Virus record (IMG/VR): IMGVR_UViG_3300022749_000028
Location: 1 to 20,784 of that record
DNA: 20,784 nucleotides
Source: a virus
Strand: one strand, 5' to 3'
Shown: positions 1,456 to 18,095 of the stretch, piece by piece
How positions within the stretch are numbered: the first letter of the stretch is position 1
Layout: every line of letters starts with the position of its first letter
Position numbers and translations under genes: made by a program
The notes under the pieces: generated by a model
What the model was told of the DNA's origin: nothing
The model's database searches: none
What the model saw: the letters and a program-made list of their open reading frames with translations, nothing else

Positions 1456-1515
1456 TTGACTCACCAATCCGTGCATGTATGGTGCTCGTGTTGTTGGGAC
1501 AACGCGAGACACAAC
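1456..1515 (+). promoter_or_regulatory. Promoter plus conserved GGGAC leader for the 43-aa gene
   Basis: TTGACT at 1456-1461 and TATGGT at 1478-1483, 16 bases apart, form a good sigma70-like promoter. The leader that follows contains TTGGGACAACGCGAGAC, a variant of the GGTTGGGACCAAACGAGACG element repeated through this window, and runs straight into the ATG at 1516. GGGAC begins at position 41 counted from the first T of TTGACT. The GAGA of the leader is the only Shine-Dalgarno candidate. Confidence 0.6.
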
Positions 1516-2075: not shown

Positions 2076-2085
2076 GGTTGGGACC
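2076..2085 (+). promoter_or_regulatory. GGTTGGGACC element abutting a start codon
   Basis: GGTTGGGACC touches the ATG at 2086 directly, with no GAGACG part and no room for a separate Shine-Dalgarno site. If the element marks a transcript 5' end, as its spacing at other promoters suggests, this mRNA would have only a few untranslated bases. Confidence 0.45.
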
Positions 2086-4380: not shown

Positions 4381-4769
4381 GCGGCCCGGCTCCGGGCGGC
4401 GATGCTGTTCTCGACGGCGATCCGCCCGGCCGCCGCGCCGGCCGTCTGCATGACGACGACGCGGAGCGGGGCAAGCCCGGCGTGCAGTTCGTCGTAGGCT
4501 CGCCAGGACTGCCGGCCGCCGCGCTCGCTCACGTCCTCGGCCCGCCACTGGCGGGCAAGCTCGCACGTCAGAGCCCAGAGGCCGCGCACCTGTGCAAGGC
4601 CGCGCTCGTACCGCAGCAGCATGAACATGTCATAGAGCTGCGAGCCGCGGAGCATCCGCCGGTTCGAGAAAGTCTTCTTGCAGGGCTTCGAGCAGAAGAT
4701 AGGCGCGCTGCCGCGCCCCTTGTTCATGGCCGTGAACGGCCGTCCGCATTCGCGGCACGTCTTGCACAT
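4377..4769 (-). CDS. Zinc-finger protein with helical C-terminus, 130 aa
   Basis: The start is the ATG at 4769: it begins the zinc finger and sits nine bases after a GGATGGGACC copy of the leader element; the 80 further upstream residues of the open frame look non-coding. The N-terminus, MCKTCRECGRPF, and FCSKPCKKTFSNRR (about residues 25-38) provide two Cys pairs for one zinc site. The rest (LYDMFMLLRYERG and onward) is helical. Similar small phage proteins with this CxxC...CSxxC and asparagine-arginine pattern exist, but their role is not known to me; nucleic-acid binding is likely. It is the distal gene of a two-gene minus-strand unit and shares a CTAG stop with the lysis cassette. Confidence 0.65.
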   Translation of the reverse strand: MCKTCRECGRPFTAMNKGRGSAPIFCSKPCKKTFSNRRMLRGSQLYDMFMLLRYERGLAQVRGLWALTCELARQWRAEDVSERGGRQSWRAYDELHAGLAPLRVVVMQTAGAAAGRIAVENSIAARSRAA

Positions 4770-4786
4770 TGCGCTGGTCCCATCCA
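4770..4786 (-). promoter_or_regulatory. GGATGGGACC leader element before the zinc-finger gene
   Basis: On the minus strand GGATGGGACCAGCGCA leads directly into the ATG at 4769. It is a one-mismatch copy of GGTTGGGACC. No TTGAC palindrome lies at the usual distance upstream; a GC hairpin (4803-4820) is there instead, so the element may act here in translation rather than at a promoter. Confidence 0.4.
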
Positions 4787-4802
4787 CGCAAGAGCTATGA
4801 GA

Positions 4803-5056: not shown

Positions 5057-5148
5057 CGCGTCGGTCCCAACCGGTTCAGGGGTCTAGCCCCTTCACGATG
5101 CATAGACGCCCGCACGGTTGTTGACAAGAGGTCAAGTACCGTGCGGGC
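5057..5148 (-). promoter_or_regulatory. Palindromic promoter/operator with long leader
   Basis: TTGAC-N5-GTCAA (5121-5135) is followed on the minus strand by CAAC-CGTG, as at three other promoters in this window. It sits at the centre of a larger palindrome: GCCCGCACGGT (5108-5118) pairs with ACCGTGCGGGC (5138-5148) around the same midpoint, 5128. TTGTCA and TATGCA with 17 bases between them give an alternative minus-strand promoter. The leader contains AGGGG-TCTAG-CCCCT (5078-5092) and then GGTTGGGACC (5071-5062) before the ATG. The operator-to-GGGACC distance is 31 bases longer than at the other copies. A plus-strand terminator reading is possible because TTTTT follows at 5152. Confidence 0.6.
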
Positions 5149-5154
5149 TGATTT

Positions 5155-5481
5155 TTACGCGGCGCGGCGGCGGCGCCCTGCGGGCTCCTCCTCGGGGGCA
5201 CGGCCGCCCTCGTTATCCTCGACTTCGCCGGCCGCCTGATCGGCGATTTCCTCGGCCGTTTCCGCCTCGGGGTGCTCGGTCTCTTCCTCGGCCTTGGCGC
5301 GGCTCGTGAAGCGGTGATCGACCTTCATCACGTCAGCGCCGGCCGCGGCCAGTCCGTTGAGGTCGTTCGACTGCTGCGCCTGATAGATCGCGTCGGCCTT
5401 GGCCTTCGTGTCTTCCAAGCTCTTCGGGTTCACCGGGAGAAACATCTTCACGGTGACGACGTAGCCCTTTTCGCGTGCCAT
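5155..5481 (-). CDS. Acidic-tailed protein downstream of recT, 108 aa
   Basis: The ATG at 5481 shares one base with the recT stop (TGATG), so translation is coupled. The N-terminal half (MAREKGYVVTVKMFLPVNP, then a helix with DTKAKADAIYQAQQ) looks folded. The C-terminal half is a low-complexity Glu/Ala stretch ending in GRRRRAA. I recognise no family. As the last gene of the RecE/RecT-like operon it could support recombination or single-strand handling, but nothing in the sequence shows that. A TGGGACC leader-like copy lies about 30 bases upstream inside recT. Confidence 0.65.
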   Translation of the reverse strand: MAREKGYVVTVKMFLPVNPKSLEDTKAKADAIYQAQQSNDLNGLAAAGADVMKVDHRFTSRAKAEEETEHPEAETAEEIADQAAGEVEDNEGGRAPEEEPAGRRRRAA

Positions 5482-6494
5482 CAGATTCTATCATCCTCTC
5501 GTTCGTCGGTCCCATCCTCGGCCCCTACGGGTTCGAGGTCTTCGACATCCTCGGAGCGCTCGGGCTCGGAGGTCTGCGAACTTGTGGCCGCCGCGGCGCT
5601 GGCGCGCTCCTGGCGGGCTTTGTCGAGAGCGGCCTTGCCACCGCCCTCCTTCTTCCTGCCGGCCGCTGGCGGGCTTGTCTCGCCATCCTGCGGGGCTTCG
5701 GTCTCGTCGTGGTCGATCTCCTCGCCCTCAGAACGATAAAGCCCGTCCACTCGTTCGAACATGGCGGCCGTCGCGCTATCAAACGGCAGTTGCTTGGAGT
5801 GCCGCCGCAGCACGGTTTTGCGCGCCATCTCGTGGGTGTGCTGCGCCCAGATCCCCACGAGATCGCCCTTGCGAATGCCCTTCTTCTTGTCGTCATACCG
5901 GGCGACGTTCTTGGACTGTAGCGCCGCAATGCGCATAACCTCAGACCAGCGCATCACTTCGATGGATTTGTGCCCGGTGTTCATGGTCACGACGGAATAG
6001 ACCGCGACAGGTTCTCCGAGTTCGCCCGTGAGGAGCGGGCGGTGGATAAGTCGCGGGTCGGAACCGGCCTGATATTCGAACAGCCCTTCCTTCATTTCGC
6101 CATCGTAGACGATGCCGGTTTCTAGCACAGACACAAGGCCGGAATTGTAGATCCGGCGACGCATTCCCGCGACCATGGGGATATATTGCGCCTCACGGGC
6201 GACGGTCACGAACGAGCCGTCTTCCTGACGCTCGCGCTTGTTGTAGATCACAAGCGCGGCCTCGCGACCGTCGAGCAGCAGGCCGTCTGATGCCGCCTTC
6301 TCGCACGCGGCGACGATGCTCTTCGGCGTGCATTCCCGAAGCTCCGGGTTGCCGTTGAGCGCCGACTTGACCAGCCCGACGAAGCGTTGCGTCGGGATGT
6401 TCTTGGGCAGGAGTTCGCCGAAGCGCTCCTGCGCGCGCACCAGTTCGGACCCGATGCGTTGGATGTTCTCGGTCTTGGCCGGCAGGTTGCTCAC
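5481..6494 (-). CDS. recT: RecT-family single-strand annealing protein
   Basis: The 337-residue product matches the RecT family: an N-terminal helical region, then TPKSIVAACEKAASDGLLLDG (about 59-79), EAALVIYNKRER, EAQYIPMVAGMRRRIYNSG (about 106-124) and later DLVGIWAQHTHEMARKTVLRR with LPFDSATA. RecT proteins anneal single strands exposed by a partner exonuclease, here the RecE-like gene upstream. After about residue 255 comes a long disordered acidic tail rich in Glu, Ala and Ser, which lengthens the protein beyond the usual size of about 270. The start is GTG 6494, overlapping the stop of the 50-aa ORF by four bases (GTGA). The end overlaps the next gene by one base. Confidence 0.9.
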   Translation of the reverse strand: MSNLPAKTENIQRIGSELVRAQERFGELLPKNIPTQRFVGLVKSALNGNPELRECTPKSIVAACEKAASDGLLLDGREAALVIYNKRERQEDGSFVTVAREAQYIPMVAGMRRRIYNSGLVSVLETGIVYDGEMKEGLFEYQAGSDPRLIHRPLLTGELGEPVAVYSVVTMNTGHKSIEVMRWSEVMRIAALQSKNVARYDDKKKGIRKGDLVGIWAQHTHEMARKTVLRRHSKQLPFDSATAAMFERVDGLYRSEGEEIDHDETEAPQDGETSPPAAGRKKEGGGKAALDKARQERASAAAATSSQTSEPERSEDVEDLEPVGAEDGTDEREDDRI

Positions 6495-6643
6495 GATTGG
6501 CTCTCCTTCTTGCGGGCCTTGGCGCGCTTACGGCGGGCCGCTCGGCGGCGGTTGCGAGCCGCCTTGATCTCGCGATGGTCGATGATCTCGCCGGTTTCCT
6601 GAGTGCGGTCCCCGGCGATCACCTCGTCTGCGATCTCGCCCAC
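6491..6643 (-). CDS. Small basic protein between recE-like and recT genes, 50 aa
   Basis: This ORF fills the gap between the RecE-like gene and recT. It starts with GTG at 6643, two bases after the upstream stop, with GAGG about seven bases before it, and ends in a GTGA overlap with recT. The product begins with about 22 mostly acidic residues and ends in a very basic tail (ARNRRRAARRKRAKARKKE). The tail suggests nucleic-acid binding; otherwise the protein is unknown to me. Exact fit at both ends is the main support for it being a gene. Confidence 0.6.
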   Translation of the reverse strand: MGEIADEVIAGDRTQETGEIIDHREIKAARNRRRAARRKRAKARKKESQS

Positions 6644-6645
6644 AG

Positions 6646-7524
6646 CTAAGCCTCAACCTGCGGGCGGATCGTGTTGCGGTAAGCCCAGGGCGGGATGTCC
6701 AGGGGCTCCGGGTCTTCCGGGTAGCCGGGCCACGCCTCGTCCGGCGCGAGCATCTTGCTATCCTCGCGCCCGACACACCGCGCGTAGGTTTCGAGAGCGC
6801 GCTTGTAGGTCTCGCGCCCTTCGTCCACGGCCGCGGGGGAAAGCTCGTAGCAGGAGACCAGAAACGGCGCGGTCTTCTCGATCACGACGAAGACAAAGGC
6901 GTCCACCTCGAACGCCCTGCCGTCGAATGTCGCGGGCCGCGCTGGGTATCGGGCCGCGCTCTTCCACACATCCGTGTAGAACGCCTCTTGCACGTGGTAG
7001 CCGTAATTCGCGCTCGCCCGGCTGAACGCCTCGCGCCCGCCGTCCGGCGTGGTCTTCAGGTCCAGGATGACACCGGCCGCCGCGTTGTAGGCGTCCGGCC
7101 GGCAGCGGCAGAGCATCCCGGTTTCGGCGTCGATCGCGTACCCTGACGCCTCGACCAGCGCGCCGCGCCGGAGATCCCGCAGCGTGGCGTTGCGCTCGCC
7201 GCTGTCGCGGATGCGCTCGGCCCGCTCGTAATCGCCCTCTGTCAGCAGCAGCCAGCCGTTGGCGTCGGCGTGAAGCTCGGCGTCCTTCCACTTGTTGCCG
7301 CGCCTGTCTGCCGGCCCCTTGATCGCCTTGACGTGGAACAAATCCGGCTCAAGCAGCGCGAGATGCGCGGCTGTGCCCAGGTCGAATGCGGCGCTGTCCT
7401 TGCGTTCGCCGAAGCGATAGTGCGCGGGCGTCTTGGTCGCGATGGTCCAGAGACCGGACTTAGAGATGCCGGGTCCGGCGTGGTAGTCTTCGTTGGATAT
7501 GTTCAGGTGAATGCCGGGCGTCAT
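6646..7524 (-). CDS. RecE-like PD-(D/E)XK exonuclease
   Basis: The 292-residue product resembles the RecE C-terminal nuclease / exodeoxyribonuclease 8 PDDEXK-like family. It begins with the typical phrase GIHLNISNEDYHAGPGISKS, then GTAAHLALLEPDLF (about 50-63), then CRPDAYNAAAGVILDLKTT (about 139-157), where the D and the DLKT provide the PD-(D/E)XK metal site, then YGYHVQEAFYTDVW (about 173-186). It would resect double-strand ends to leave 3' single strands for RecT. The start ATG 7524 follows GGTGGAGA and overlaps the stop of the 44-aa ORF (ATGA). It is encoded two ORFs before recT in the same operon. Confidence 0.85.
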   Translation of the reverse strand: MTPGIHLNISNEDYHAGPGISKSGLWTIATKTPAHYRFGERKDSAAFDLGTAAHLALLEPDLFHVKAIKGPADRRGNKWKDAELHADANGWLLLTEGDYERAERIRDSGERNATLRDLRRGALVEASGYAIDAETGMLCRCRPDAYNAAAGVILDLKTTPDGGREAFSRASANYGYHVQEAFYTDVWKSAARYPARPATFDGRAFEVDAFVFVVIEKTAPFLVSCYELSPAAVDEGRETYKRALETYARCVGREDSKMLAPDEAWPGYPEDPEPLDIPPWAYRNTIRPQVEA

Positions 7525-7655
7525 GACTTGCTGATCTCCACCGATGCGGGGATACAGAACAGCAAAAGTTCCCGAATGTGGTGGATAGCTTCATCTAATG
7601 TCAGATATGCTATTGAACATGCCTCGGCATGTTCGTTCCATCGCACCACGTACAT
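7521..7655 (-). CDS. Leader-operon small protein, 44 aa
   Basis: The ORF starts at ATG 7655, immediately after the leader element (GGGACCAAGCGAGAGCGACC), and its TGA overlaps the start of the RecE-like gene in ATGA. The product begins MYVVRWNEHAEACSIAYLTL and is otherwise unremarkable, with a helical middle and two cysteines. Its position as first gene of the recombination operon, the leader and the overlap argue for translation. It may be a functional small protein or may serve to couple translation of the nuclease gene. I recognise no family. Confidence 0.6.
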   Translation of the reverse strand: MYVVRWNEHAEACSIAYLTLDEAIHHIRELLLFCIPASVEISKS

Positions 7656-7749
7656 GGTCGCTCTCGCTTGGTCCCGAAGCCACCATTCACGTTTGATGAC
7701 ATGATGTCAAGCGCGTGCTACGGTCGCCGCGGGCCACGGAGGCAGACGG
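7656..7749. promoter_or_regulatory. Divergent promoter/operator region, recombination operon versus HTH regulator
   Basis: On the minus strand TTGAC-ATCAT-GTCAT (7711-7697) is followed by CAAA-CGTG, and GGGACC starts at 7675, position 37 of the module. TTGACA then serves as -35, with AATGGT 17 bases later as a possible -10. The core TGACAT-G-ATGTCA (7698-7710) is a perfect palindrome. On the plus strand TTGATG at 7694-7699 could be an overlapping -35 for the regulator gene, whose GGAGG (7738-7742) lies before ATG 7750. A protein bound at this palindrome could control both directions. Confidence 0.65.
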
Positions 7750-8085
7750 ATGAAAACAAGGGTTGATAAGCTTTGCGAGCTATTCGCGGACAAGAAAGAG
7801 TTGTGCGACTGGCGCGCCAAGAACAACACGGTTAAATACAACGGCGGTAATAAGAACTTAGCCGCCGCTATTGGCGTCGATCCTGCCGTTGTATCGCGAT
7901 GGAACGGAACAGGGGCGCGCGGAAACTTCGGCAACATTCCTCCGCAGTACAATCAACGCATCGTTGAGGCGTGCGACGCGCGTAAGATCAGCCGCGATCT
8001 CCTGCATGACATCCTCGACGGGCAAACCTGTCCGTGCTGCGGGCAGGATCTGCCGGTTGGTCAGTTCGTGGAGGCGCGGCGATGA
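7750..8085 (+). CDS. Small HTH regulator with C-terminal Cys motif, 111 aa
   Basis: The product has a helix-turn-helix-like centre, NLAAAIGVDPAVVSRWNG (about 36-53), followed by GNIPPQYNQRIVEACD, a phrase common in Cro/CI-like regulators of alphaproteobacterial phages, and a tail CPCCG (about 97-101) that could bind metal with a further ligand. ATG 7750 has GGAGG at proper distance. It diverges from the recombination operon across the palindrome at 7697-7711, so it is the best candidate in this window to bind the TTGAC palindromes. Its own leader lacks the GGGACC element. It overlaps the helicase gene in ATGA. Confidence 0.7.
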   Translation: MKTRVDKLCELFADKKELCDWRAKNNTVKYNGGNKNLAAAIGVDPAVVSRWNGTGARGNFGNIPPQYNQRIVEACDARKISRDLLHDILDGQTCPCCGQDLPVGQFVEARR

Positions 8086-9548
8086 GCCTGTTCGTCCCCA
8101 AGGCGCAGAAGATCGAATTGCGCCCGTTCCAGGCGGACATGGTGACGGAGACCCGCGCCAAGCTCCGCGTGCATGATGCGGTTCTGGTCCAGCTTCCGAC
8201 CGGCGGCGGCAAGACGGTGCTGTCGTCGTTTATGATGCAGTCGGCCGTGTCCAAGGGGCAGCGGCCGTGGTTCGTCTGCCACCGCGATTTTCTCGTGGAT
8301 CAGACGAGCAAAACGCTGGATCGCGTCGGCGTCGATCACGCATTCATCGCTGCCGGCAGACGGTGGAACCCCTACGCCCCGGCGCAAGTCTGCGGCATCG
8401 ACACGCTGAAATCACGCCTCGACCGCGTTCCGCGCGAGTGCATGCCAACCGTGATCTTCGTGGATGAGGGGCACCATAGCTGCTCCCCGACCTGGGCACG
8501 CACCATCAATTGGGCGCGCGCTGGTGGTTCCAAGATCATTGGCCTGTCGGCGACGCCGGAACGCCTCGATCGCAAGGGGCTCGATGAACTGTACGGCGAC
8601 ATGGTCCGCGGGCCTTCGCTGTCGTGGCTTATCGAGCAAGGCTATCTGTCGAAGTACGAGGCGTTCGCGCCAAGCGTGCCGGATCTGGCATCGCTCTCGA
8701 CGCGAGCGGGCGACTACAAGACAGAAGAGCTAGAAGAGGAGATGAACACCGATGTCTTGGTCGGCGACATGGTATCTCATTATCGGCGCCTTGCTCATGG
8801 TAAGCGCGCTGTTTACTTTTGTGTTAGCATTCGACACTCACAGCATGTCGCCGCCGCCTTCCGTGCTGCCGGCGTTTCGGCTGTGCATCTTGACGGCAGC
8901 GATCCTTCTGATGTTCGCAGGTCTGCGGCTAGATCGATGGCCTTAGGCGAGCTTGACGTAATTACGAACGTCAACCTGTTCGGCGAGGGCTATGACCTCG
9001 CGGCCCAGGCGGGGCAGGACGTGACGATTGAGTGCGTCGGCATGGCCCGGCCCACGAAGTCGCTGGCAATGTACATGCAACAGGTCGGCCGGGCGCTGCG
9101 TCCGAAGGACGATCCTGCGATCATCCTCGATCATGCCGGCAACCTCCTGACCCACGGCCTGCCCGACGACGACCGCGAGTGGCAGCTAGCACCGCGGGCG
9201 AAGACCAAGAAGAAGAAGGGCGAGGCCGCGGCGGCTCCGATCAGGGTGTGCCCGAACTGCTTTGCTACCGCCGCGGCCAACTCGATGGTCTGCACGTTCT
9301 GCGGCGAGCCGTACCCGACCAAAGACGGCCGCATGCCCGAGGAGACGGAGGACGAGTTGCAGCCGGTCGATAAGGCCGCTCTTCGGGCGTTCCGCGCGCA
9401 GCAGGAGCGTGACTGCGAAAGCGTCGAAGATCTCGTGAAAGTCGGCAAGGCCCGCGGGTATTCAAAGCCGGTCGAATGGGCTGCGCATCTTTGGACGGCC
9501 AGAAATAGGAGGGTTGAAGAGCAAGCAGCAGCACAAAAGCGTTGGTAG
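8082..9548 (+). CDS. SF2 DEAD/DEAH-type helicase with zinc motif
   Basis: ATG 8082 overlaps the upstream stop (ATGA), with GGAGG at 8070-8074. The 488-residue product has the superfamily 2 motifs: LPTGGGKT (38-45, Walker A), VDEGHHS (127-133, motif II with DEGH instead of DEAH), SATPERL (156-162, motif III), NLFGEGYD (298-305) and QQVGRALRPK (333-342, motif VI). After a Lys-rich linker, a four-Cys zinc site follows (C390, C393, C404, C407). It resembles phage helicases annotated as type III restriction res-subunit-like. A role in phage DNA replication or recombination with the VRR-NUC nuclease encoded just downstream is likely. No methylase is present, so a restriction role is not supported. 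Confidence 0.87.
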   Translation: MSLFVPKAQKIELRPFQADMVTETRAKLRVHDAVLVQLPTGGGKTVLSSFMMQSAVSKGQRPWFVCHRDFLVDQTSKTLDRVGVDHAFIAAGRRWNPYAPAQVCGIDTLKSRLDRVPRECMPTVIFVDEGHHSCSPTWARTINWARAGGSKIIGLSATPERLDRKGLDELYGDMVRGPSLSWLIEQGYLSKYEAFAPSVPDLASLSTRAGDYKTEELEEEMNTDVLVGDMVSHYRRLAHGKRAVYFCVSIRHSQHVAAAFRAAGVSAVHLDGSDPSDVRRSAARSMALGELDVITNVNLFGEGYDLAAQAGQDVTIECVGMARPTKSLAMYMQQVGRALRPKDDPAIILDHAGNLLTHGLPDDDREWQLAPRAKTKKKKGEAAAAPIRVCPNCFATAAANSMVCTFCGEPYPTKDGRMPEETEDELQPVDKAALRAFRAQQERDCESVEDLVKVGKARGYSKPVEWAAHLWTARNRRVEEQAAAQKRW

Positions 9549-9549
9549 T

Positions 9550-9580
9550 GGTTGGGACCAAACCAGACGTAGAGGAAGCT
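9550..9580 (+). promoter_or_regulatory. GGTTGGGACC leader element before the VRR-NUC gene
   Basis: GGTTGGGACCAAACCAGACG (9550-9569) starts two bases after the helicase stop and is followed by AGAGGAAG and the ATG at 9581. The match to the consensus is one mismatch in 20. TTGAAG lies 41 bases before GGGACC, but no convincing -10 or TTGAC palindrome is seen, so an independent promoter is uncertain. Confidence 0.55.
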
Positions 9581-9970
9581 ATGCAGGAACGGGATATTAC
9601 GAACCCGCTGCTTAAAGCAGCGTCGAAAGCTGGCGCACGACTGTTCCGCCAGAACGTGGGCGTTGGCTGGGTCGGCCGCGTCGTGCGGAAGACAGATGAT
9701 AGTGTCACGCTCGCCAATCCTAGGCCGCTGCACGCGGGTCTGTGCAAGGGTTCATCCGACGTGATCGGCTGGACGCCCGTCGTGGTCACGGCAGACATGA
9801 TCGGCCGGCGCGTAGCGGTGTTTACGGCGCTTGAGATCAAGACGCCGGGCGTGGTGACGACGCCGGAGCAAGCGCGCTTCGTTGAGACGGTCCGCGAGGC
9901 CGGCGGATATGCGGCCGTGGTCCGCAACGTCGAGGACGGTGTTGCGGCGCTGTCGCCGACGCTGATCTGA
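9581..9970 (+). CDS. VRR-NUC domain nuclease, 129 aa
   Basis: The start ATG 9581 lies behind AGAGGAAG and the leader element; the open frame extends upstream to 9542 but those residues are encoded by the element itself. The product shows the VRR-NUC core: GSSDVIG (D60), ALEIKTP (E85, K87), TPEQARFVETV (Q97) and GGYAAVVRNVED. This family contains stand-alone phage nucleases that act on branched or flap DNA, related to the FAN1 nuclease domain. It follows an SF2 helicase, a pairing seen in many phage replication modules. The length is usual for a stand-alone domain. Confidence 0.88.
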   Translation: MQERDITNPLLKAASKAGARLFRQNVGVGWVGRVVRKTDDSVTLANPRPLHAGLCKGSSDVIGWTPVVVTADMIGRRVAVFTALEIKTPGVVTTPEQARFVETVREAGGYAAVVRNVEDGVAALSPTLI

Positions 9971-10012
9971 GGGCAGACGGGAACTCCGCCATCAACATGA
10001 GGAGAGACGAAC

Positions 10013-10201
10013 ATGCAGGCAGAGGCGCGCAAATTCGTGGTCGAAGTCCACGTTACGCAGCGGTTCGAGATCGAAGTCACGGCACAGGACGAAGGCACGG
10101 CAGAACTGGCCGCGCTAGAGGTCTATCGGTCCGCGGATGAGGTCGGCGGCTATGAAATCGGCGACCTGCCGGCAGAGGCAGTCGCCGTAACCGCCGCCTA
10201 A
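10013..10201 (+). CDS. Small protein, DpnD/PcfM-like pattern, 62 aa
   Basis: ATG 10013 follows a strong GAGGAGAG. The product has a beta-type start (KFVVEVHVTQRFEIEVTAQD) followed by a helix (EGTAELAALEVYRSAD) and an acidic end. This resembles small single-domain proteins such as the DpnD/PcfM group, whose function is unknown; the resemblance is weak. It belongs to a run of small plus-strand genes between the VRR-NUC nuclease and the ParA cassette. Confidence 0.55.
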   Translation: MQAEARKFVVEVHVTQRFEIEVTAQDEGTAELAALEVYRSADEVGGYEIGDLPAEAVAVTAA

Positions 10202-10243
10202 ATATGGGGAGGGGAAATCTTTCGAACGGAGTAAGGGCAGGTC

Positions 10244-10474
10244 ATGGCAAAGCGGCGCGCAGTAATAAGCCTCACATTCTCGACCGATATGGACATGATA
10301 CCGGGATGGGGGCACGAAATTGAGGATTGGACCAATCTAGTAAATCGGGCGCTTATGCAGCAGTCGCACTACAATCCGAGCGTTGAGATACATTCGGCCG
10401 AGGCCCGACCGATGCGCTTCGACAATGAAAAGGGATGGACGCTCGACGCACCGGCCGCTCAAGCCGCCGAATAG
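10244..10474 (+). CDS. Hypothetical protein, 76 aa
   Basis: The ATG at 10244 is preceded by CGGAGTAAGGGCAGG. The product starts MAKRRAVISLTFSTDMDMI and contains GWGHEIEDWTNLVNRALMQQ, with a beta start then a helix. There is no motif I can name. Its untranslated leader shares GGAGGGGAAA-N4-TCGAAC (10208-10227) with the leader of the next gene (10478-10497), which suggests duplicated control elements. It lies in the run of small plus-strand genes of unknown role. Confidence 0.55.
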   Translation: MAKRRAVISLTFSTDMDMIPGWGHEIEDWTNLVNRALMQQSHYNPSVEIHSAEARPMRFDNEKGWTLDAPAAQAAE

Positions 10475-10512
10475 CGCGGAGGGGAAAGAAATCGAACTCG
10501 GGAGAGTAGGCG

Positions 10513-10743
10513 ATGAAATGTATGATGTGTGGGGCCGGGCCGTCAGAGGACGGGGGTGGTACTTCAATCTTCCGGCTCAACGACAAGGGCCAGACGGGCG
10601 TGTGGGCCTGCCGGGCGCACTACGCGGATGCCAAGGCGCGGTACTATCCCGACGACGTTCCGAACGCCCCGGCACCGGCCTCGAAGAAGCGTACCGATGA
10701 CGAGCCGTTGGGCCCATGGACCGGCGGCTTCACGCCGGCCTAG
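10513..10743 (+). CDS. Small Cys-containing protein, 76 aa
   Basis: The ATG at 10513 follows GGGAGAGTAGG. The product begins MKCMMCGAG and has WACRAHYADAK (about 32-42); C3, C6, C34 and H37 could form a zinc site of the CxxC...CxxH kind. The C-terminal half is Pro/Ala-rich and probably unstructured. Such zinc knuckles often bind nucleic acid or protein, but no family is recognised. It is the last small gene before the ParA promoter. Confidence 0.55.
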   Translation: MKCMMCGAGPSEDGGGTSIFRLNDKGQTGVWACRAHYADAKARYYPDDVPNAPAPASKKRTDDEPLGPWTGGFTPA

Positions 10744-10795
10744 TTCGACGGAGGGGGCATCCGCTGTTAACCAATCCTTAACCATTTGCCAGCCT

Positions 10796-10827
10796 GTCGG
10801 TGCATCGGTGTATCGGAGGATCGGTAA
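10796..10827 (+). repeat. Four tandem 8-bp repeats at the parA start (operator/centromere-like)
   Basis: TCGG occurs at 10797, 10805, 10813 and 10821, exactly every eight bases, in units close to ATCGGTGT. The last unit runs into the ATG of parA at 10828. Tandem short direct repeats like this are typical binding sites for ribbon-helix-helix partition proteins, which both repress their promoter and mark the centromere. AGGA within the third unit (10817-10820) may serve as ribosome binding site, so RHH binding would also cover it at the DNA level. Confidence 0.7.
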
Positions 10828-11499
10828 ATGCGGATTGTGACCCTGGCATCTCAGAAGGGTGGGGCGTCGAAGACGACGCTCTGCCGGCACCTTGCCGTCG
10901 CGGCCCATCGTCAGGGGTTCGCTACGGCGATCCTCGACACGGACATGCAGGGCGGTTCTCGGGATTGGGGCGATACGCGGGGCGCACAGGGCCACGGGCC
11001 GCCGCTGGTCACTGTCGAGCTATCGCCGAACGAGCGCCATTTATACGCGGCCCTGGCGAGCCTGAAGGCCAAGGGGACGGAAGTCGTGTTCATCGACACG
11101 CCGGGATCGCTCAACGGCCCGATCGCGCTCAACGCGGCCAAGGCCGCCGATATCGTGCTCGTGCCGATGCGCCCAACCGCCGATGACATCAAGGCTCTGC
11201 CGCCGTTCATAGCTCTTATGCGCGGCAGCAAGGTCCCGTTCGTCGTCGTGGTCTCCGCGGCTGTCACCAACACCAGCCGCCCGGAACGCGAGGCGATCGA
11301 ATACCTACAGGCGAGCCGCCTGCCGGTGCTTGATACCGTCGTGCATCAGAAATCGGTAATTCCCGAAACACTGATATCGGGGCAAACCGTTTTCGAGATA
11401 TCGGGGTTGACCGACGCGGAACAGCGCGCGGTCGATGAGTTCCAAGCGGTGTGGGACTGGACCAGGGCGAAGCTGTCGCTGACGGAGCGCCCGGCATGA
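10828..11499 (+). CDS. parA: ParA-type partition ATPase
   Basis: The 223-residue product has the deviant Walker A of the ParA/MinD family, QKGGASKTT (9-17, with K10 and K15), ILDTDMQG (35-42, Walker A') and VVFIDTPGS (86-94, Walker B). It lacks an N-terminal DNA-binding domain, as in small plasmid ParA proteins that work with a separate RHH partner. It would move or tether replicons over the nucleoid by ATP-dependent DNA binding. The gene begins inside tandem 8-bp repeats and overlaps the RHH gene in ATGA. Orphan ParA proteins also occur in lytic phages, but the paired RHH gene and repeats support a partition cassette. Confidence 0.88.
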   Translation: MRIVTLASQKGGASKTTLCRHLAVAAHRQGFATAILDTDMQGGSRDWGDTRGAQGHGPPLVTVELSPNERHLYAALASLKAKGTEVVFIDTPGSLNGPIALNAAKAADIVLVPMRPTADDIKALPPFIALMRGSKVPFVVVVSAAVTNTSRPEREAIEYLQASRLPVLDTVVHQKSVIPETLISGQTVFEISGLTDAEQRAVDEFQAVWDWTRAKLSLTERPA

Positions 11500-11732
11500 A
11501 GCGCCCCCGCAGCACTCTCGGCGAGATCGCGCCTATCGTGCCCGATGAGCCCGAACCGCCGGCCGCGGAGCCGCCGAAGCTCGATGACCCGAACGCGCGC
11601 CGGAAGCTCTCGCTCTACGTCAAGCAGGCGCACTACCGCGCGATTCGAAAAGTCGCGGCGGATCAAGATGTTAAGATGCAAGACGTGGTAGACGACGCGC
11701 TGACCGTATACTTCCGGGCGAAGGGGTATTAA
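11496..11732 (+). CDS. Ribbon-helix-helix DNA-binding partner of ParA, 78 aa
   Basis: ATG 11496 overlaps the parA stop (ATGA). The first 33 residues are Pro/Glu-rich and probably flexible, like the ParA-contacting tails of small ParB-type proteins. Residues about 36-76 read RKLSLYVKQAHYRAIRKVAA then DQDVKMQDVVDDALTVYF, a strand followed by two helices as in the RHH fold. The likely sites are the 8-bp ATCGGTGT repeats before parA and directly after this gene. It would act as centromere binder and autorepressor. Confidence 0.8.
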   Translation: MKRPRSTLGEIAPIVPDEPEPPAAEPPKLDDPNARRKLSLYVKQAHYRAIRKVAADQDVKMQDVVDDALTVYFRAKGY

Positions 11733-11737
11733 CTGAA

Positions 11738-11764
11738 ATACCGATATCGGTGTATCGGTTTATC
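11738..11764. repeat. Second cluster of ATCGGTGT repeats after the RHH gene
   Basis: ATACCGAT, ATCGGTGT and ATCGGTTT lie edge to edge from 11738 to 11761, followed by a degenerate ATCTTG. The first unit is inverted, which gives a perfect ACCGATATCGGT palindrome at 11740-11751. The units match those in front of parA, so this is a candidate parS-like site downstream of the operon. Confidence 0.7.
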
Positions 11765-12005
11765 TTGAGCGCGCGACACCTGTCCACGGCACTTACCGGG
11801 TTGCCATGCGTGAAAATCATGCCGAAACGCATGGCTGATTTACGCATAAGTGCCATTATGGAACCTGCGCCCGCGGCCATGCGTGCGGCGCAGGTCTCGC
11901 CGTGAGCGCAGCGTAACAAGCTGAAGCGCCAAGCGATTGCATTGCTGGCTGCGATTATTCGAGCCTGACGTTGCGCAATAATGCGGCAATGAGAGCCCTA
12001 AAATA
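11765..12005. other. Intergenic stretch with CCATGCGT repeats
   Basis: No convincing gene lies here. GCCATGCGT (11803-11811) and ACGCATGGC (11827-11835) form a perfect 9-bp inverted repeat with a 15-base loop, and a third copy, CCATGCGTG, lies at 11877-11885. Nearer the end, CATTGC...ATTATT (11939-11958) and AATAAT...GCAATG (11977-11991) form an imperfect inverted repeat ahead of the terminator. It may hold cis sites for the partition cassette or a small RNA; neither is shown. Confidence 0.4.
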
Positions 12006-12039
12006 AAACGCCCGCGGCCATCACTGGCGGCGGGCGTTT
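12006..12039. terminator. Bidirectional rho-independent terminator
   Basis: AAACGCCCGC (12006-12015) pairs with GCGGGCGTTT (12030-12039). On the minus strand a TTTTATTTTA run follows, a good terminator for the primase operon. On the plus strand the stem ends in TTT then CCTCG, a weaker end for the parA operon. Convergent transcription makes a shared terminator sensible here. Confidence 0.8.
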
Positions 12040-12047
12040 CCTCGTGG

Positions 12048-12065
12048 TTGGGACCAAACGAGACG
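12048..12065 (+). promoter_or_regulatory. Orphan copy of the GGTTGGGACC leader element
   Basis: GTGGTTGGGACCAAACGAGACGC sits right after the terminator (GGGACC at 12050-12055) and is the best match to the consensus in the window. It points into the 3' end of the minus-strand operon. The usual start position carries CAGATTGG rather than an ATG, and no convincing plus-strand gene follows. Confidence 0.6.
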
Positions 12066-12089
12066 CAGATTGGCTGCGCGGGGAGAGTC

Positions 12090-12323
12090 CTATCCAGGGC
12101 GGTCCGTTTCGTCAAGATTTTTCGTTTGTTTGATCGCCTGCCGTATCACGCCCTCGTGATCTTTCATAAAACTTATGGTTGAAATGACTTCGTTAAGTAC
12201 GTCTAAATGGAATGCTGTCATATTGTCGTAATATTCTATTTGCTGGATTGCTCCCGCGGCAATTCCGGCCTTAAGCACCTGTAATGACGAAAGTTGCTGG
12301 TTTAGACCATGCCGCTTAGCCAT
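12090..12323 (-). CDS. Small helical protein downstream of the primase, 77 aa
   Basis: The start is ATG 12323, overlapping the primase stop by eight bases, with AGGAGG 11 bases upstream; the longer open frame to 12365 lies inside the primase gene. The product is a mostly helical protein (LSSLQVLKAGIAAGAIQQIE, then TAFHLDVLNEVISTISFMKD) with no recognised motif. The gene is visibly richer in A and T than the primase gene, which may point to a different origin. It is the last gene of the minus-strand operon, before the terminator at 12006-12039. Confidence 0.6.
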   Translation of the reverse strand: MAKRHGLNQQLSSLQVLKAGIAAGAIQQIEYYDNMTAFHLDVLNEVISTISFMKDHEGVIRQAIKQTKNLDETDRPG

Positions 12324-14766
12324 TAGTCCCCGGCCTCCTGAATGCGTCGATCCTTCTACGTCCACTTATCTTCGTGTATTTCACCCAACCGTTTGCGATC
12401 AGGTGCGAGATGATGCGGTCAGCCTTGTTCCCATCCTGCATGTGCGTCGGAATGGACAAAGCAATGAATACCTCAGACAACGTGACATTATCAGCATTAC
12501 TTCCGACGCGCGTCTCAAGAAACGTGTCGATTGGCCCAGCCCAAGCATCGGCCTGGAAGCGTTTACGCTGTTCGATAGCAGCGTGTTCGACTTCATCACC
12601 TTGCAGCCACCACGGGACGCCGGCTCTGTAGAGGTGGACAGCTTCAGCCCAGAGTTGATCTCGGTCGCGCGTAAGCGCGGCAATATCAGTACTCTGCGAC
12701 ACGTACACCGGCCAGAAGCGCCGCGCGCCGGTCGGGTCTTTGAGATAGCCTCGACCGCGTGGGTTCATCGTGCCGGCAAGAACGAACCGGCGCGGCAAGT
12801 CCGTGACTGTCTTGCCGTAAGGCAGGCGCGTGCTGTCGATCTTGCGAGACAGAAAGCTCTTCACGACTTCCGTGTCCGCCTTGCTGATCGCAACAAGCTC
12901 GTCCATCTCGATGATGATGTTACCTTGCATCAGCATGATACCGTCCTTCGACGTAACGTCGCTGATGCCGGACGTGAAGTACCGTTCGCCGTTGATCGTC
13001 GCCAGGACTTCGAGCGCGGTCGATTTGAGACGTGATTGCTCGCCTTCTAACACAAGCATGTTATCGACCTTCTCGCCGTCCGGCCGCTCCGACAGGTTCC
13101 GGGCGACGGCGGCAATCATCCAGCGCATTCCGAACGCGCGTTCAATCTCGTTCTTGGTCGGCTTGACGCCCATATACTGTGTCAGCCACGGCGCATGTCC
13201 GTCGATCCCTTGCAGCCGTGGCTTTCCGTCCCATCGCAGAGCCGTGAAATAGTCCCGGATTGGGTCTATCTTGGTCGCTTCGGCCGCGGCCATGACGGCG
13301 GTCCCTGTGCCGGTGTGCGTCGGCGTGAGCCCCGCCCGTTCCAGCCACGTCATCGCCAGCGTCACGTCATTGTCCGTGAGCTTGCGTGGCCGCCACTCGC
13401 CCGCGCCTCGATCCCATGCCGGCCGCTTCGCGATGATCGTCTGCGCGGTGAAAGCGTTCTTCGTGAGCACGCCGCGCATCTGCGGGTGACGCTGTAGGAA
13501 CGTGACGAAGTTCGTCATCAGCTTCGGCTTGGTCAGGCCGTTTTCGTTAAGCTCAAGGTACGACCGCCAGTGCATCCCGTCTTCGTAGTCGCCGGGATCG
13601 GCCTGGATGGCGCGGAGCGGTACAACCTTGGCTGACGGCCGCTCGTCCGGCTCGGCCTGGATCTTCTCTTGCGCCACCTGTTTCAGCGCCGGGCGCGCGG
13701 CGCGCTTCTCCTGGCGGGGCGGCGGTGGCGCGCTCGCGGCGATCGGCGGGGCCTCGGCCGCTGGCGGCGTCCAGTCCCTGGCCCCGGCTCGGGCGAACCG
13801 CAGGACGTCGGCCCTGGTCCAGCCCGCCGCCTCGGCGTCGGCGATGTCCCACCCCTTGGCTTGCTCGTCGCCCGGCGGGTCGATGATCCTGATGCGCTCC
13901 GCGCCGGCCGCGTGGGACAGCCGCGCGACCTCGTGGGCGGCCTCGACGCCGGCGGGGTCATTGTCGGGCCAGATCAGGACCTCACGCCCGCGCACGGGGC
14001 TCCAATCACTCTTCCCGGCCGCCTTGCCGCCGCCCTGCCAGCAAGTCGCGACCACGCCGGGCAGCAGCCGCGCCGCGGCATCGGCACATTTCTCGCCCTC
14101 GACAACAAGCACCTGGGCGTCGGGCCGCTCAGCGAAGGCCGGCAGATTGTACAGCCGCCTCGGCCCGGTGAACGGCCGGTGGCACCAGCCGACCTCGCCC
14201 GTCTCCGTGTTCTCGCACCACAGCACGAGCGGCGTGAGCTTGCGACCACGGATCTCGACCCGCAGCACGTAGCCGATGACCTGCGAGTTACTGAGCCGAT
14301 ACGGATATACCGATATCGGTGTGTACTGCGGCGGCGGGCGATCGGGCCGCTTCGGGTTGACGATCGGCGGCGTCCGCTTGCCTGCCACGATCGGCGGCGC
14401 GTTCCCAGGCGGGAGCTTCGCCACCCACGCCGCATAGATGTCCGCGCGCTCAACAGGCGCGGGTGCCGCCTCGCGACGGACCTCCTCGCGCGTGCCGCCC
14501 AGGATCTCGCAAGCGCCCGTGAAATCGACCCCGTCGTATTGCTGGACGAAGTCGATCACGTCGCCCTTGGCGGGACAGCCGAAGCAGTGGAACTCCTGCG
14601 TCCCCTTCCGGCCGCGGTACACCGTGAAAGACGGCGTTCCCTCGGCATGGAAGGGGCAGCAGGCGGTCCACTCCGAGCCGCCGCCGGTCAGCTTGATCCC
14701 GCGCTTGGGCAGGTATTCGGACAGCGGATTGTCCCGCCGCACTGCGTCGGCGTCAAAGCTAGGCAC
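12316..14766 (-). CDS. Primase-helicase: CHC2 zinc finger, Toprim and VapE-type ATPase
   Basis: The 816-residue product combines priming and unwinding in one chain. CPFHAEGTPSF and FHCFGCPAKGDVIDFV give the CHC2 zinc ligands C37, H40, C61 and C64. A Toprim domain follows, with VLVVEGEKCADAA (about 217-229) and LIWPDNDPAG. After a Pro/Ala-rich linker, residues about 550-710 are VapE-like: GEQSRLKST (575-583) as degenerate Walker A, NIIIEMDEL (616-624) as Walker B, then FLSRKIDSTRLPYG and GARRFWPV. The C-terminus looks like a winged helix. Start GTG 14766 follows GGGGG; the ATG at 14777 is out of frame. It probably initiates phage or plasmid-type replication. Nucleotides 14307-14322 copy the ParA-site repeat. 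Confidence 0.88.
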   Translation of the reverse strand: MPSFDADAVRRDNPLSEYLPKRGIKLTGGGSEWTACCPFHAEGTPSFTVYRGRKGTQEFHCFGCPAKGDVIDFVQQYDGVDFTGACEILGGTREEVRREAAPAPVERADIYAAWVAKLPPGNAPPIVAGKRTPPIVNPKRPDRPPPQYTPISVYPYRLSNSQVIGYVLRVEIRGRKLTPLVLWCENTETGEVGWCHRPFTGPRRLYNLPAFAERPDAQVLVVEGEKCADAAARLLPGVVATCWQGGGKAAGKSDWSPVRGREVLIWPDNDPAGVEAAHEVARLSHAAGAERIRIIDPPGDEQAKGWDIADAEAAGWTRADVLRFARAGARDWTPPAAEAPPIAASAPPPPRQEKRAARPALKQVAQEKIQAEPDERPSAKVVPLRAIQADPGDYEDGMHWRSYLELNENGLTKPKLMTNFVTFLQRHPQMRGVLTKNAFTAQTIIAKRPAWDRGAGEWRPRKLTDNDVTLAMTWLERAGLTPTHTGTGTAVMAAAEATKIDPIRDYFTALRWDGKPRLQGIDGHAPWLTQYMGVKPTKNEIERAFGMRWMIAAVARNLSERPDGEKVDNMLVLEGEQSRLKSTALEVLATINGERYFTSGISDVTSKDGIMLMQGNIIIEMDELVAISKADTEVVKSFLSRKIDSTRLPYGKTVTDLPRRFVLAGTMNPRGRGYLKDPTGARRFWPVYVSQSTDIAALTRDRDQLWAEAVHLYRAGVPWWLQGDEVEHAAIEQRKRFQADAWAGPIDTFLETRVGSNADNVTLSEVFIALSIPTHMQDGNKADRIISHLIANGWVKYTKISGRRRIDAFRRPGTNG
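14307..14322. repeat. 16-bp copy of the ParA-region repeat inside the primase gene
   Basis: ATACCGATATCGGTGT here is identical to 11738-11753 downstream of the RHH gene, and a further partial unit (ATATCCGTAT on the minus strand) adjoins it. It encodes part of TPISVYPYRL in a linker-like region before the Toprim domain, so protein constraint does not obviously explain the match. Confidence 0.65.
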
Positions 14767-14777
14767 GAAGCCCCCAT

Positions 14778-14800
14778 CTTGTCCGTTTCGGTCCCAAGGT
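14778..14800 (-). promoter_or_regulatory. TTGGGACC leader element before the primase gene
   Basis: On the minus strand CCTTGGGACCGAAACGGACA precedes the GGGGG ribosome binding site and GTG start at 14766. TTGCGC (from 14833) and GCATAC, 17 bases apart, give a plausible promoter, with GGGACC beginning at position 39 from that -35. No TTGAC palindrome is present. Confidence 0.5.
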
Positions 14801-14811
14801 GAGGGTATGCG

Positions 14812-15099
14812 CTAGCTGTAAAGGCACGCGCAAATCCCGAGCACGCCGCCTGTGAACATGACGGTGACTACGCCCCAGAACGCGAATTCCAGCCACTGGG
14901 GCGGCTTCTCGGCCAACAGGCGGTCAACATGCGCCTGGAAATCAGTATCCGGTTCTTGGGCCTGCGCTGCGGCCTCTGCCGGCTGTCGCGGACGGAACCG
15001 CTCCGACAGGTCGATGAGGTTCGAGAGCCCGATCGGGCAGTCAAATCCCTCTACGTTAGCCACAAACGTATCGCGGCTTGCCTCTGCTGAGAATCGCAT
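14812..15099 (-). CDS. Tail-anchored membrane protein, 95 aa
   Basis: ATG 15099 (MRFSAEASRD) is chosen because it lies right after the leader element with GAGACGAGACG as ribosome binding region; the open frame further upstream reads through the promoter. The first 65 residues are soluble and polar. A single hydrophobic segment near the C-terminus, LEFAFWGVVTVMFTGGVLGI, is followed by only a few residues, so it is probably anchored with its N-terminus in the cytoplasm. The family is unknown. It has its own palindromic promoter, between the DUF4031 gene and the primase gene. Confidence 0.65.
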   Translation of the reverse strand: MRFSAEASRDTFVANVEGFDCPIGLSNLIDLSERFRPRQPAEAAAQAQEPDTDFQAHVDRLLAEKPPQWLEFAFWGVVTVMFTGGVLGICACLYS

Positions 15100-15154
15100 C
15101 GTCTCGTCTCCTGGTCCCAACCGGAGCGTGTCACGATTATTGACGGGCTGTCAA
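15100..15154 (-). promoter_or_regulatory. TTGAC palindrome promoter with GGGACC leader
   Basis: On the minus strand TTGAC-AGCCC-GTCAA (15154-15140) is followed by TAAT-CGTG, and GGGACC begins at 15118, position 37 of the module. The leader reads GGTTGGGACCAGGAGACG and ends at ATG 15099. TTGACA suits a -35; the -10 region (ACACGC) is not sigma70-like. The palindrome covers the stop codon of the upstream DUF4031 gene. Confidence 0.65.
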
Positions 15155-15546
15155 TCGGCCCTGGCGGCAATCCTCTCCGACGTTGTGCCGGCCCGTATCG
15201 CACGGCACGCTTCCACCGATTTGAGCCTGTTGCGCCCAACAGCGACGATGCGCGGCTCGTCGGACACCAACTGCTGCCGGGCCTTCCATTCGAGCGGGCC
15301 GAACTTGTCCGTCTCGATCGCGCCAGCCGCGACGGCCAGGGCTCGCTTTTCCTTCGCGATGTCGAAGTGGACCCAGGACGCGAGGCGATGCTTGCCCCAC
15401 GATAGCGTCGGGTGGCCCTGTATCCACTTTCGTTGCACGCCGATGCGATCGACCATCGCCAGCAGTTCTTCGAGGCTGTCCGCCCACATGTGGCACATGA
15501 TCATCCGGCCGAACGGGTGAACGGCGGGATCGACGTAAACGGCCAT
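15151..15546 (-). CDS. DUF4031-like protein, 131 aa
   Basis: The product begins MAVYVDPAVHPFGRMIMCHM and continues WADSLEELLAMVDRIGVQRKWIQ, closely following the pattern I recall for DUF4031 (MAVYVD...WADTxEELHxFAxRIGLKRxWFQ). WVHFDIAKEKRALAVAAGA also fits the end of that domain. The domain is common in phages and actinobacteria and has no established biochemical function. The last 40 residues (SDEPRIVAVGRNRL and onward) extend beyond the domain. ATG 15546 shares one base with the upstream stop (TGATG), so the two genes are coupled. Confidence 0.75.
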   Translation of the reverse strand: MAVYVDPAVHPFGRMIMCHMWADSLEELLAMVDRIGVQRKWIQGHPTLSWGKHRLASWVHFDIAKEKRALAVAAGAIETDKFGPLEWKARQQLVSDEPRIVAVGRNRLKSVEACRAIRAGTTSERIAARAD

Positions 15547-15893
15547 CAGATCCGCTCCTCTTCTGCCATCTCCTCGTTCCCGTCGATCGCGTCAGCCTCT
15601 GGCAGGTACACGCGGATCTCAAGCCGCTCCCGACGCTTTCCACCGCCCGGCGGGTCACGCCGCGTCAACCGCTTCGTCTCGGGTACAAGCACCTTGACCC
15701 GGCCCATCAGGATCAGCCGTTGCACGGCCGCCCATCGCGCCTTGCGGTCGTCGTTCACCGTCAGCGCCATGCGCCGCGGGTGCTTGAGTTCGGCAAGAAT
15801 GTCGTCCTCTGCACGCGCCACAAGCGCCTGGAATGTGCTGAGCAACCGCGCTTCCCTGTGCTGCTCGCTCTGCTGCCTCATCCGAAACCCCAT
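15546..15893 (-). CDS. Hypothetical basic helical protein, 115 aa
   Basis: The frame is open from 15905. I place the start at ATG 15893; ATG 15881, with GGGG seven bases upstream, is equally possible. The product is helical and charged: QQSEQHREARLLSTFQALVA, then HPRRMALTVNDDRKARWAAV, then a strand-like part with LEIRVYLP and an acidic end. The middle (RKARWAAVQRLILMGRVKVL) could be a helix-turn-helix-like or wing element, but I cannot name a family. It heads the two-gene unit with the DUF4031 gene, beside the AT-rich gap. Confidence 0.6.
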   Translation of the reverse strand: MGFRMRQQSEQHREARLLSTFQALVARAEDDILAELKHPRRMALTVNDDRKARWAAVQRLILMGRVKVLVPETKRLTRRDPPGGGKRRERLEIRVYLPEADAIDGNEEMAEEERI

Positions 15894-15905
15894 CGTTAAC
15901 GGCAA

Positions 15906-16254
15906 ACGTAAGCTAACACACTGAGCATTTCCTCGGGAAGCGTCGATTTTGCAGTTTGGAACGACTTTGAACTAGGGGGGTGTTTCGCTGTTGGCGTCTC
16001 GGCTTAGGTACCTATTGCGCTGTAAATAGCGGGGGGTGCGAGAAACATAGGCCGAGCAACGGTCATATTCATCTACCTGAATATATATGAGACTAACCAT
16101 TTGCGTCTTAGAGGGTTATATTTATATGGCTATTAATAGCTAAGATGCTGATTACCAACGATAAAAGCGCTTTTTTCAATCTGCTTATGAAATGCTTATT
16201 ATTATTCGTGATAAATATGTAACGTTAGGGACAGATAAAGACTTCAGTCCTAAT
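15906..16254. other. AT-rich intergenic region, candidate replication or control region
   Basis: No gene is supported here. The sequence is far richer in A and T than its surroundings, especially at 16060-16255. It holds two perfect 12-bp palindromes, GCTATTAATAGC (16129-16140) and AAAAGCGCTTTT (16163-16174, followed by TT), and runs such as GAATATATATGAG and TTATTATTATTCG. It separates divergent transcription units, the minus-strand primase region and the rightward operon starting at 16313. A DNA-unwinding region of an origin is one reading; horizontally acquired or degraded DNA is another. I saw no clear DnaA box. Confidence 0.5.
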
Positions 16255-16312
16255 TTGACAGAGTGGCAAGAACCGTGATTCCCTGTCTCCGGGACCAAAC
16301 GGAGACGTTACG
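16255..16312 (+). promoter_or_regulatory. TTGAC palindrome-type promoter with GGGACC leader
   Basis: TTGAC-AGAGT-GGCAA (16255-16269) is followed by GAAC-CGTG, and GGGACC starts at 16291, position 37 of the module. The second palindrome half has one mismatch. The leader CCGGGACCAAACGGAGACG leads to ATG 16313, with GGAG as ribosome binding site. It faces right and would drive the operon of small genes before the terminases. Confidence 0.65.
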
Positions 16313-18036: not shown

Positions 18037-18095
18037 TTGCGCTCTTGAATCGCGCTCTGCATGGTCTTGCCCGTGTTGGGACACACGAGACGACT
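18037..18095 (+). promoter_or_regulatory. Promoter plus GGGAC leader for the terminase operon
   Basis: TTGCGC (18037) and CATGGT (18060-18065), 17 bases apart, give a possible promoter. GTTGGGACACACGAGACG (18075-18092) is a leader copy close to the ATG at 18096. The layout, with ATGGT about 12 bases before GGGAC, is the same as at 1478-1500, so these two promoters form a subtype without the TTGAC palindrome. Confidence 0.5.

Follow-up and report, generated by a model that had tools for sequence, protein, structure and literature searches.

The analyzed stretch of DNA (the window, abbreviated W), a virus contig of 20,784 bases from IMG/VR, contains a recurring palindrome, NTGAC-N5-GTCAN, which at several sites stands at a near-constant distance from a GGGACC box. 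We consider it likely that these palindromes are operators of a small Cro-like protein encoded at 7750-8085, that they lie over the -35 hexamers of weak sigma70 promoters, and that the bound protein represses those promoters. Judged by its sequence, the element is composed of two modules: the palindrome, whose TTGAC half is a consensus -35, and the GGGACC box, which occurs near gene starts. Related early genes in the same order as in the window are found in four syntenic phage contigs (G1, IMGVR_UViG_3300007640_000075; G2, IMGVR_UViG_3300017407_000001; G7, IMGVR_UViG_3300017681_000009; G8, IMGVR_UViG_3300021060_000001), which together with W make up the five genomes referred to below. Two further contigs, L115 and L116, were found by a profile search with the regulator and bring the contigs compared for the operator to seven; at least six uncultured relatives share the palindrome.

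In the window, the form TTGAC-N5-GTCAW-NAAN-CGTG is found on the minus strand at 5135-5113, 7710-7688, and 15154-15132, and on the plus strand at 16255-16277, where the palindrome is degenerate (GGCAA in place of GTCAW); the G1 orthologue of this last site, at gene s, has the full palindrome. The initial annotation of this DNA had located three of the four copies correctly and the second one base off (7711-7689), and its description of a conserved palindrome holds for the class but not for the copy at 16255. The composite pattern TTGAC-N7-CA-N2-AA-N-CGTG was observed four times, compared to none in 1,000 dinucleotide-preserving shuffles of the window, and the palindrome gave four strand-matches where 0.018 were expected. 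TTGAC lies 36 to 37 bases ahead of GGGACC three times, against a mean of 0.02 in the shuffles. Counted from the first T, GGGACC begins at position 37 in the 15154 and 16255 copies, as had been proposed for the last three, but at 36 in the 7710 copy; in the 5135 copy it begins at 68. The promoter-associated sites and the candidate regulator are as follows.

7688-7710, minus strand: candidate operator-promoter element towards the k/exonuclease/RecT operon, TTGACATCATGTCATCAAACGTG; GGGACC from position 36 (7675); same intergenic region in G1, G2, G7, and G8.
7696-7735, plus strand: the dyad of that site in the direction of the regulator, ATGACA-N17(...CGTGC)-TACGGT-N6-GGGCC; regulator start codon at 7750.
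15132-15154, minus strand: candidate operator-promoter element in front of gene p and the primase operon; GGGACC from position 37.
16255-16277, plus strand: candidate operator-promoter element in front of gene s; second half-site degenerate, GGGACC from position 37.
7750-8085, plus strand: candidate regulator of 111 amino acids, with a Cro/YdaS-like helix-turn-helix (HTH; helices 33-41 and 45-52) and a C-terminal CxxC, from weak Pfam, structure-model, and fold matches.

The spacing at these sites fits a sigma70 promoter. Start-site surveys that include alphaproteobacteria give a -35/-10 spacer of 17 bp and a start 6 bp past the -10 (PMC8407463), so that a sigma70 promoter predicts a start at position 36. 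In 12 operator-linked sites of the five phages, several of them orthologous and thus not all independent, the distance from TTGAC to the GGG of the block (counted as GGGAC or GGGCC/GGGGCC) was 35 to 37 bases, with 36 in eight sites and a standard deviation of 0.55. The distance from GGG to the start codon was looser (19 to 23 bases; standard deviation, 1.55). These figures support the proposal that TTGAC serves as a -35, with spacers of 17 to 18 bp, and that GGGACC lies at the expected +1; loss of the 37-base spacing in close relatives had been named as one observation that would refute the idea, and the spacing is kept at 35 to 37. With GGG taken as +1, a T stands at -7 in 9 of the 12 sites, and the remainder of the -10 is weak (AATGGT, CACGCT, TTCCCT, and others). 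On the regulator side of the dyad, an orientation that had been overlooked, the -10 is TACGGT in the window, and in G8, L115, and L116 it is TATGAT, as part of TTGACG-N17-TATGAT. The statement that the -10 regions are not sigma70-like was therefore too strong, given the T at -7 and these sister promoters on the same dyad. At the 37-base sites, CGTG places a TG at -15/-14, as in an extended -10, and the block is roughly one helical turn beyond GTCA; it may aid a weak -10, be an outer operator contact, or both.

The operator accompanies the regulator gene. In all seven contigs found to encode the regulator, NTGAC-N5-GTCAN lies just upstream of it, within about 60 bp of its start and between the divergent exonuclease and HTH-regulator genes; it is this association that favors the 7750-8085 product as the likely regulator of a protein-controlled promoter class. 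Regulator identity to the window protein is 37 to 86% in the four contigs compared in full and about 45% over 75 residues in L115 and L116. In G2 the intergenic site is flanked by CACG and CGTG on either side and reads as a promoter element both ways. G7 has ten copies of the palindrome (mean over permuted cores, 1.4), including a run of four adjacent candidate operators at 22772-22847; these mix TTGAC and GTGAC outer bases and precede a leftward open reading frame (ORF). Many G7 copies have G/C as their outer base pair (GTGAC...GTCAC), but at promoter-linked sites the half that would serve as the -35 stays TTGAC. All palindrome copies in the relatives fall in non-structural regions. Beyond these contigs, a megablast of the whole window against INPHARED phages gave no match, and neither a relative of the regulator nor the composite site was found in the genome contigs searched. 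Contigs L018 and L019 and most other contigs that matched the pattern were without GGGACC or the rest of the layout, and these matches were taken as chance.

We therefore set out the following model. The palindrome NTGAC-N5-GTCAN would be the operator of the 7750-8085 protein, one of whose half-sites also supplies the TTGAC -35 for sigma70 promoters with 17- to 18-bp spacers, so that a bound dimer, centered at about -28, would block RNA polymerase. In the 7.7-kb intergenic region a single operator would serve two divergent promoters, and the protein would thus repress itself and the exonuclease/RecT operon together. The other operator copies would add the p-primase and s operons to this set. 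GGGACC would lie at +1 of the operator-linked promoters and act as an independent second start tag that also marks genes within operons.

Several observations weigh against this model. The HTH assignment is weak, being based on sub-threshold matches and a medium-confidence structure model: both Pfam matches fell below the cut-off (P22_Cro, 1.4e-4; YdaS, 7e-4), the model had a predicted local distance difference test score (pLDDT) of 77, and its best Foldseek match, to N15 Cro, was not significant. The -10 hexamers of the p and s promoters in the window are poor (CACGCT and TTCCCT), and a promoter scanner called none of the four window sites. No tyrosine integrase was found in the five genomes, and nothing points directly to an integrated lysogeny for which a repressor would be required. 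Paracoccus phage KLEP18-1 is the closest isolate for the exonuclease only, so that the host class is no more than probable. A different protein of the phage or its host could also be the one that binds the palindrome.

TGAC-N-GTCA-like sites are common among host regulators, and in view of the weak HTH assignment the palindrome might be bound by one of these or by a second phage repressor encoded outside the 20.8-kb contig, with the HTH gene adjacent only through the location of the early switch. We regard this as improbable, because the operator accompanies the regulator gene in seven contigs across a large divergence, and because the syntenic early region of KLEP18-1, which has an unrelated regulator there, has ordinary TTGAC-N17-TANNNT-like promoters and lacks the palindrome. 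There is likewise only a small chance that the regulator works as an activator, like lambda CII, binding around the -35 and recruiting RNA polymerase to promoters with a deficient -10. The very weak -10 hexamers at several sites would be explained in this way, and the HTH region had one weak PDB profile match to lambda CII (E = 0.44). However, the site is an inverted and not a direct repeat and covers the -35 itself, the best fold match, although not significant, is Cro and not CII, and the regulator's own promoter has a good -10 (TACGGT in W, TATGAT in G8), so that activation should be unneeded there. We give an alternative sigma factor or a phage RNA polymerase little weight: in the searches of window proteins no phage polymerase gene was seen, and both the -35 and the spacing suit sigma70. 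Repression by the Cro-like protein remains the reading that we favor.

The GGGACC box is separable from the operator. Overall, GGGACC is not over-represented in the window (15 occurrences; 13.0 expected), but TGGGAC lies upstream of 10 of the 37 starts, compared to 0.5 expected, and is the most enriched of all hexamers there. In W, G1, G2, and G7 the boxes near starts are on the sense strand; in G8 this is hardly the case. The earlier four-copy account was thus incomplete, as about seven further GGGAC boxes (at 1496, 2080, 4781, 9554, 12050, 14795, and 18078) occur without the TTGAC palindrome. A GGGACC at 5513, within the recT coding sequence, may be incidental. The start-associated boxes of the window are as follows.

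7670-7675, minus strand: GGGACC box of gene k, operator-linked.
15113-15118, minus strand: GGGACC box of gene p; 26-base leader identical in the operator-less G1 locus.
16291-16296, plus strand: GGGACC box of gene s, operator-linked.
5063-5068, minus strand: GGGACC box of gene h, start-associated.
4776-4781, minus strand: GGGACC box of gene g, without operator; nearly the same leader ahead of a different 68-amino-acid ORF in G1.
14790-14795, minus strand: GGGACC box at the primase start, without operator; GGGAC kept in five genomes.
9554-9559, plus strand: GGGACC box without operator at a nuclease-like gene right after the helicase stop codon; kept in G1.
1496-1501, plus strand: GGGACA box behind an ordinary promoter-like TTGACT-N16-TATGGT.
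2080-2085, plus strand: GGGACC box abutting ATG (GGGACCATG); kept in G1.
12050-12055, plus strand: GGGACC box in GTGGTTGGGACCAAACGAGACG; no ORF found behind it here, a 45-amino-acid ORF in G1.
18078-18083, plus strand: GGGACA box of gene v; GGGACC in G1.

In the view of the initial annotation, operator, promoter, and initially transcribed sequence evolve together as a single unit; this fails where the box stands without an operator. Each of the five genomes shows such a box at the primase start. Gene p is another case: its 26-base leader (CTCCGGTTGGGACCAGGAGACGAGAC) is identical in W and G1, while G1 lacks an upstream TTGAC. So is gene g, whose leader (window 4766-4800; G1 34283-34316) matches over 30 bases with two differences and has different genes behind it. 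Near-identical leaders ahead of different genes in close relatives suggest gene exchange behind a fixed leader. Conversely, operators occur without GGGACC at position 36 at site 5135, in the G7 array, and on the regulator side of G7 and G8. What stands, we infer from the spacing, is a common +1 position of GGGACC in operator-linked promoters.

An explanation of GGGACC as a translation-level element only, with the 36-base distance from TTGAC reflecting nothing but short leaders, seems to us rather unlikely. The box is start-associated and strand-specific (in W, seven sense and no antisense boxes near starts), is found within operons, and at genes c, g, and h either adjoins the ATG or is no more than 6 bases from it, all of which would suit such a role. 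Yet operator-linked boxes track the promoter more tightly than the start codon, the distance from box to start codon varies widely at operator-less sites, and GGGACC shows no stronger pairing with the 16S tail than other starts do (medians, -7.0 versus -8.2 kcal/mol). The leaders fold no better than shuffles. A further explanation, that some copies of the palindrome are terminators or RNA hairpins instead of operators, we put at somewhat under an even chance, and it concerns chiefly the copy at 5108-5156 (site 3).

5108-5156, no strand assigned: palindrome inside an extended inverted repeat, GCCCGCACGGT...ACCGTGCGGGC, then TGATTTTT; GGGACC at position 68 leftward.

Site 3 lies between convergent late (plus-strand) and early (minus-strand) genes, and its hairpin, followed by TGATTTTT, folds far better than shuffles (z = -4.4). 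It is kept in G1, G2, and G7; the G2 copy has N6 between the half-sites, which would preserve a hairpin and twist an operator. The extended stem and T run are found only at this site, whereas the other copies are short palindromes at promoters. Site 3 is thus probably a terminator for rightward late transcripts, from its predicted fold and position, and possibly an operator as well. Between site 3 and the start box, at 5079-5092, lies a further hairpin-like block (GGGGCTAGACCCC / GGGACTAGACCCT) that is kept in G1 and G2.

Other features of the window may also be regulatory. The stretch at 15950-16250, between the divergent genes r and s, is AT-rich (up to 68% A+T, with 37% for the genome) and is a possible replication origin or regulatory region. 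At 10828-11732, both W and G1 encode ParA and a small second gene, ribbon-helix-helix-like by eye. Repeats of the types ACCGATATCGGTGT and CGGTG(C/T)ATCGG (10798-10830, 11738-11753, and 14307-14322) flank these genes, with one copy inside the primase gene, and are possibly partition or autoregulation sites. Given ParA with a small partner gene and no tyrosine integrase in the relatives, these phages may persist as plasmids.

The proposed system resembles several known ones. In Cro/CI-type autoregulation (lambda, P22, and N15), a small Cro-like HTH protein acts at a palindromic operator over a -35, with divergent transcription from one intergenic region. Here, the candidate is a small HTH protein, Cro-like by sub-threshold Pfam and Foldseek matches, and, by sequence, the palindrome overlaps the regulator's own promoter in seven contigs; unlike those systems, one operator is shared by divergent promoters, copies lie at distant early promoters, no integrase was found, and the protein has a C-terminal CxxC. 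Sites of lambda CII are direct repeats (TTGC-N6-TTGC) flanking the -35, whereas those here are inverted repeats (TTGAC-N5-GTCAA). The stoperators of L5 and cluster A phages are likewise repressor sites dispersed in one genome, but those of L5 are asymmetric 13-bp sites and not palindromes at promoters of non-structural genes, and the L5 stoperator GGTGGMTGTCAAG had no match in the window with fewer than three mismatches. We probably see a small repressor-controlled gene set of a known kind, new for this phage group, with its likely regulator in hand.

The closest precedent by layout is the start-associated sequence (SAS) and extended SAS (ESAS) of cluster K mycobacteriophages, and the element described here is not a member of those families. 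In these phages (TM4 and Adephagia among them), an inverted repeat precedes roughly half of the tags at starts (PMC3203893), and a putative SigA-like promoter lies in the upstream motif (PMC11373665). That motif has 17- to 18-bp spacing and a 15-bp inverted repeat whose sequence differs between subclusters (PMC3203893, PMC11373665, PMC12699233). GGGACC and TTGAC-N5-GTCAA show the same architecture: a short strand-specific tag, in many copies at the starts of non-structural genes, a subset of which have an upstream inverted repeat. As to promoter hexamers, the sites here have a -35 and 17- to 18-bp spacing, and at several of them the -10 is weak. However, the motifs are unrelated, and the cluster K 13-bp tag GGGATAGGAGCCC is not enriched in the window (6 matches with up to three mismatches; 6.8 expected). 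The inverted repeat here extends over the -35, the position of the tag is the expected +1 and not that of a Shine-Dalgarno sequence, and the operator accompanies one regulator gene. Microbacterium cluster EF phages also have SAS/ESAS-like motifs (GGGAAAGGACCCC), with an upstream motif centered on GTAGAG (PMC7302621); this is again a start tag with an extended upstream motif in an unrelated phage group, and the sequences differ from those described here. A literature search for an earlier description outside actinobacteriophages returned nothing relevant. We tentatively raise, as a doubtful idea, a phage-wide regulon with two separately moving tags: an operator doubling as the -35, and GGGACC, which at operator promoters would be read as the beginning of the transcript and elsewhere as a mark of internal starts, recognized by a phage or host factor. 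If true, the SAS/ESAS architecture would have arisen independently a third time, here in phages infecting Gram-negative and probably alphaproteobacterial hosts. The same two-part layout would then occur in a different kind of phage, with the inverted repeat readable as an operator over a promoter and the tag as a separate element; one of the two parts goes with a single regulator gene while its sequence changes from relative to relative, and both the candidate regulator and its putative target operons can be named.

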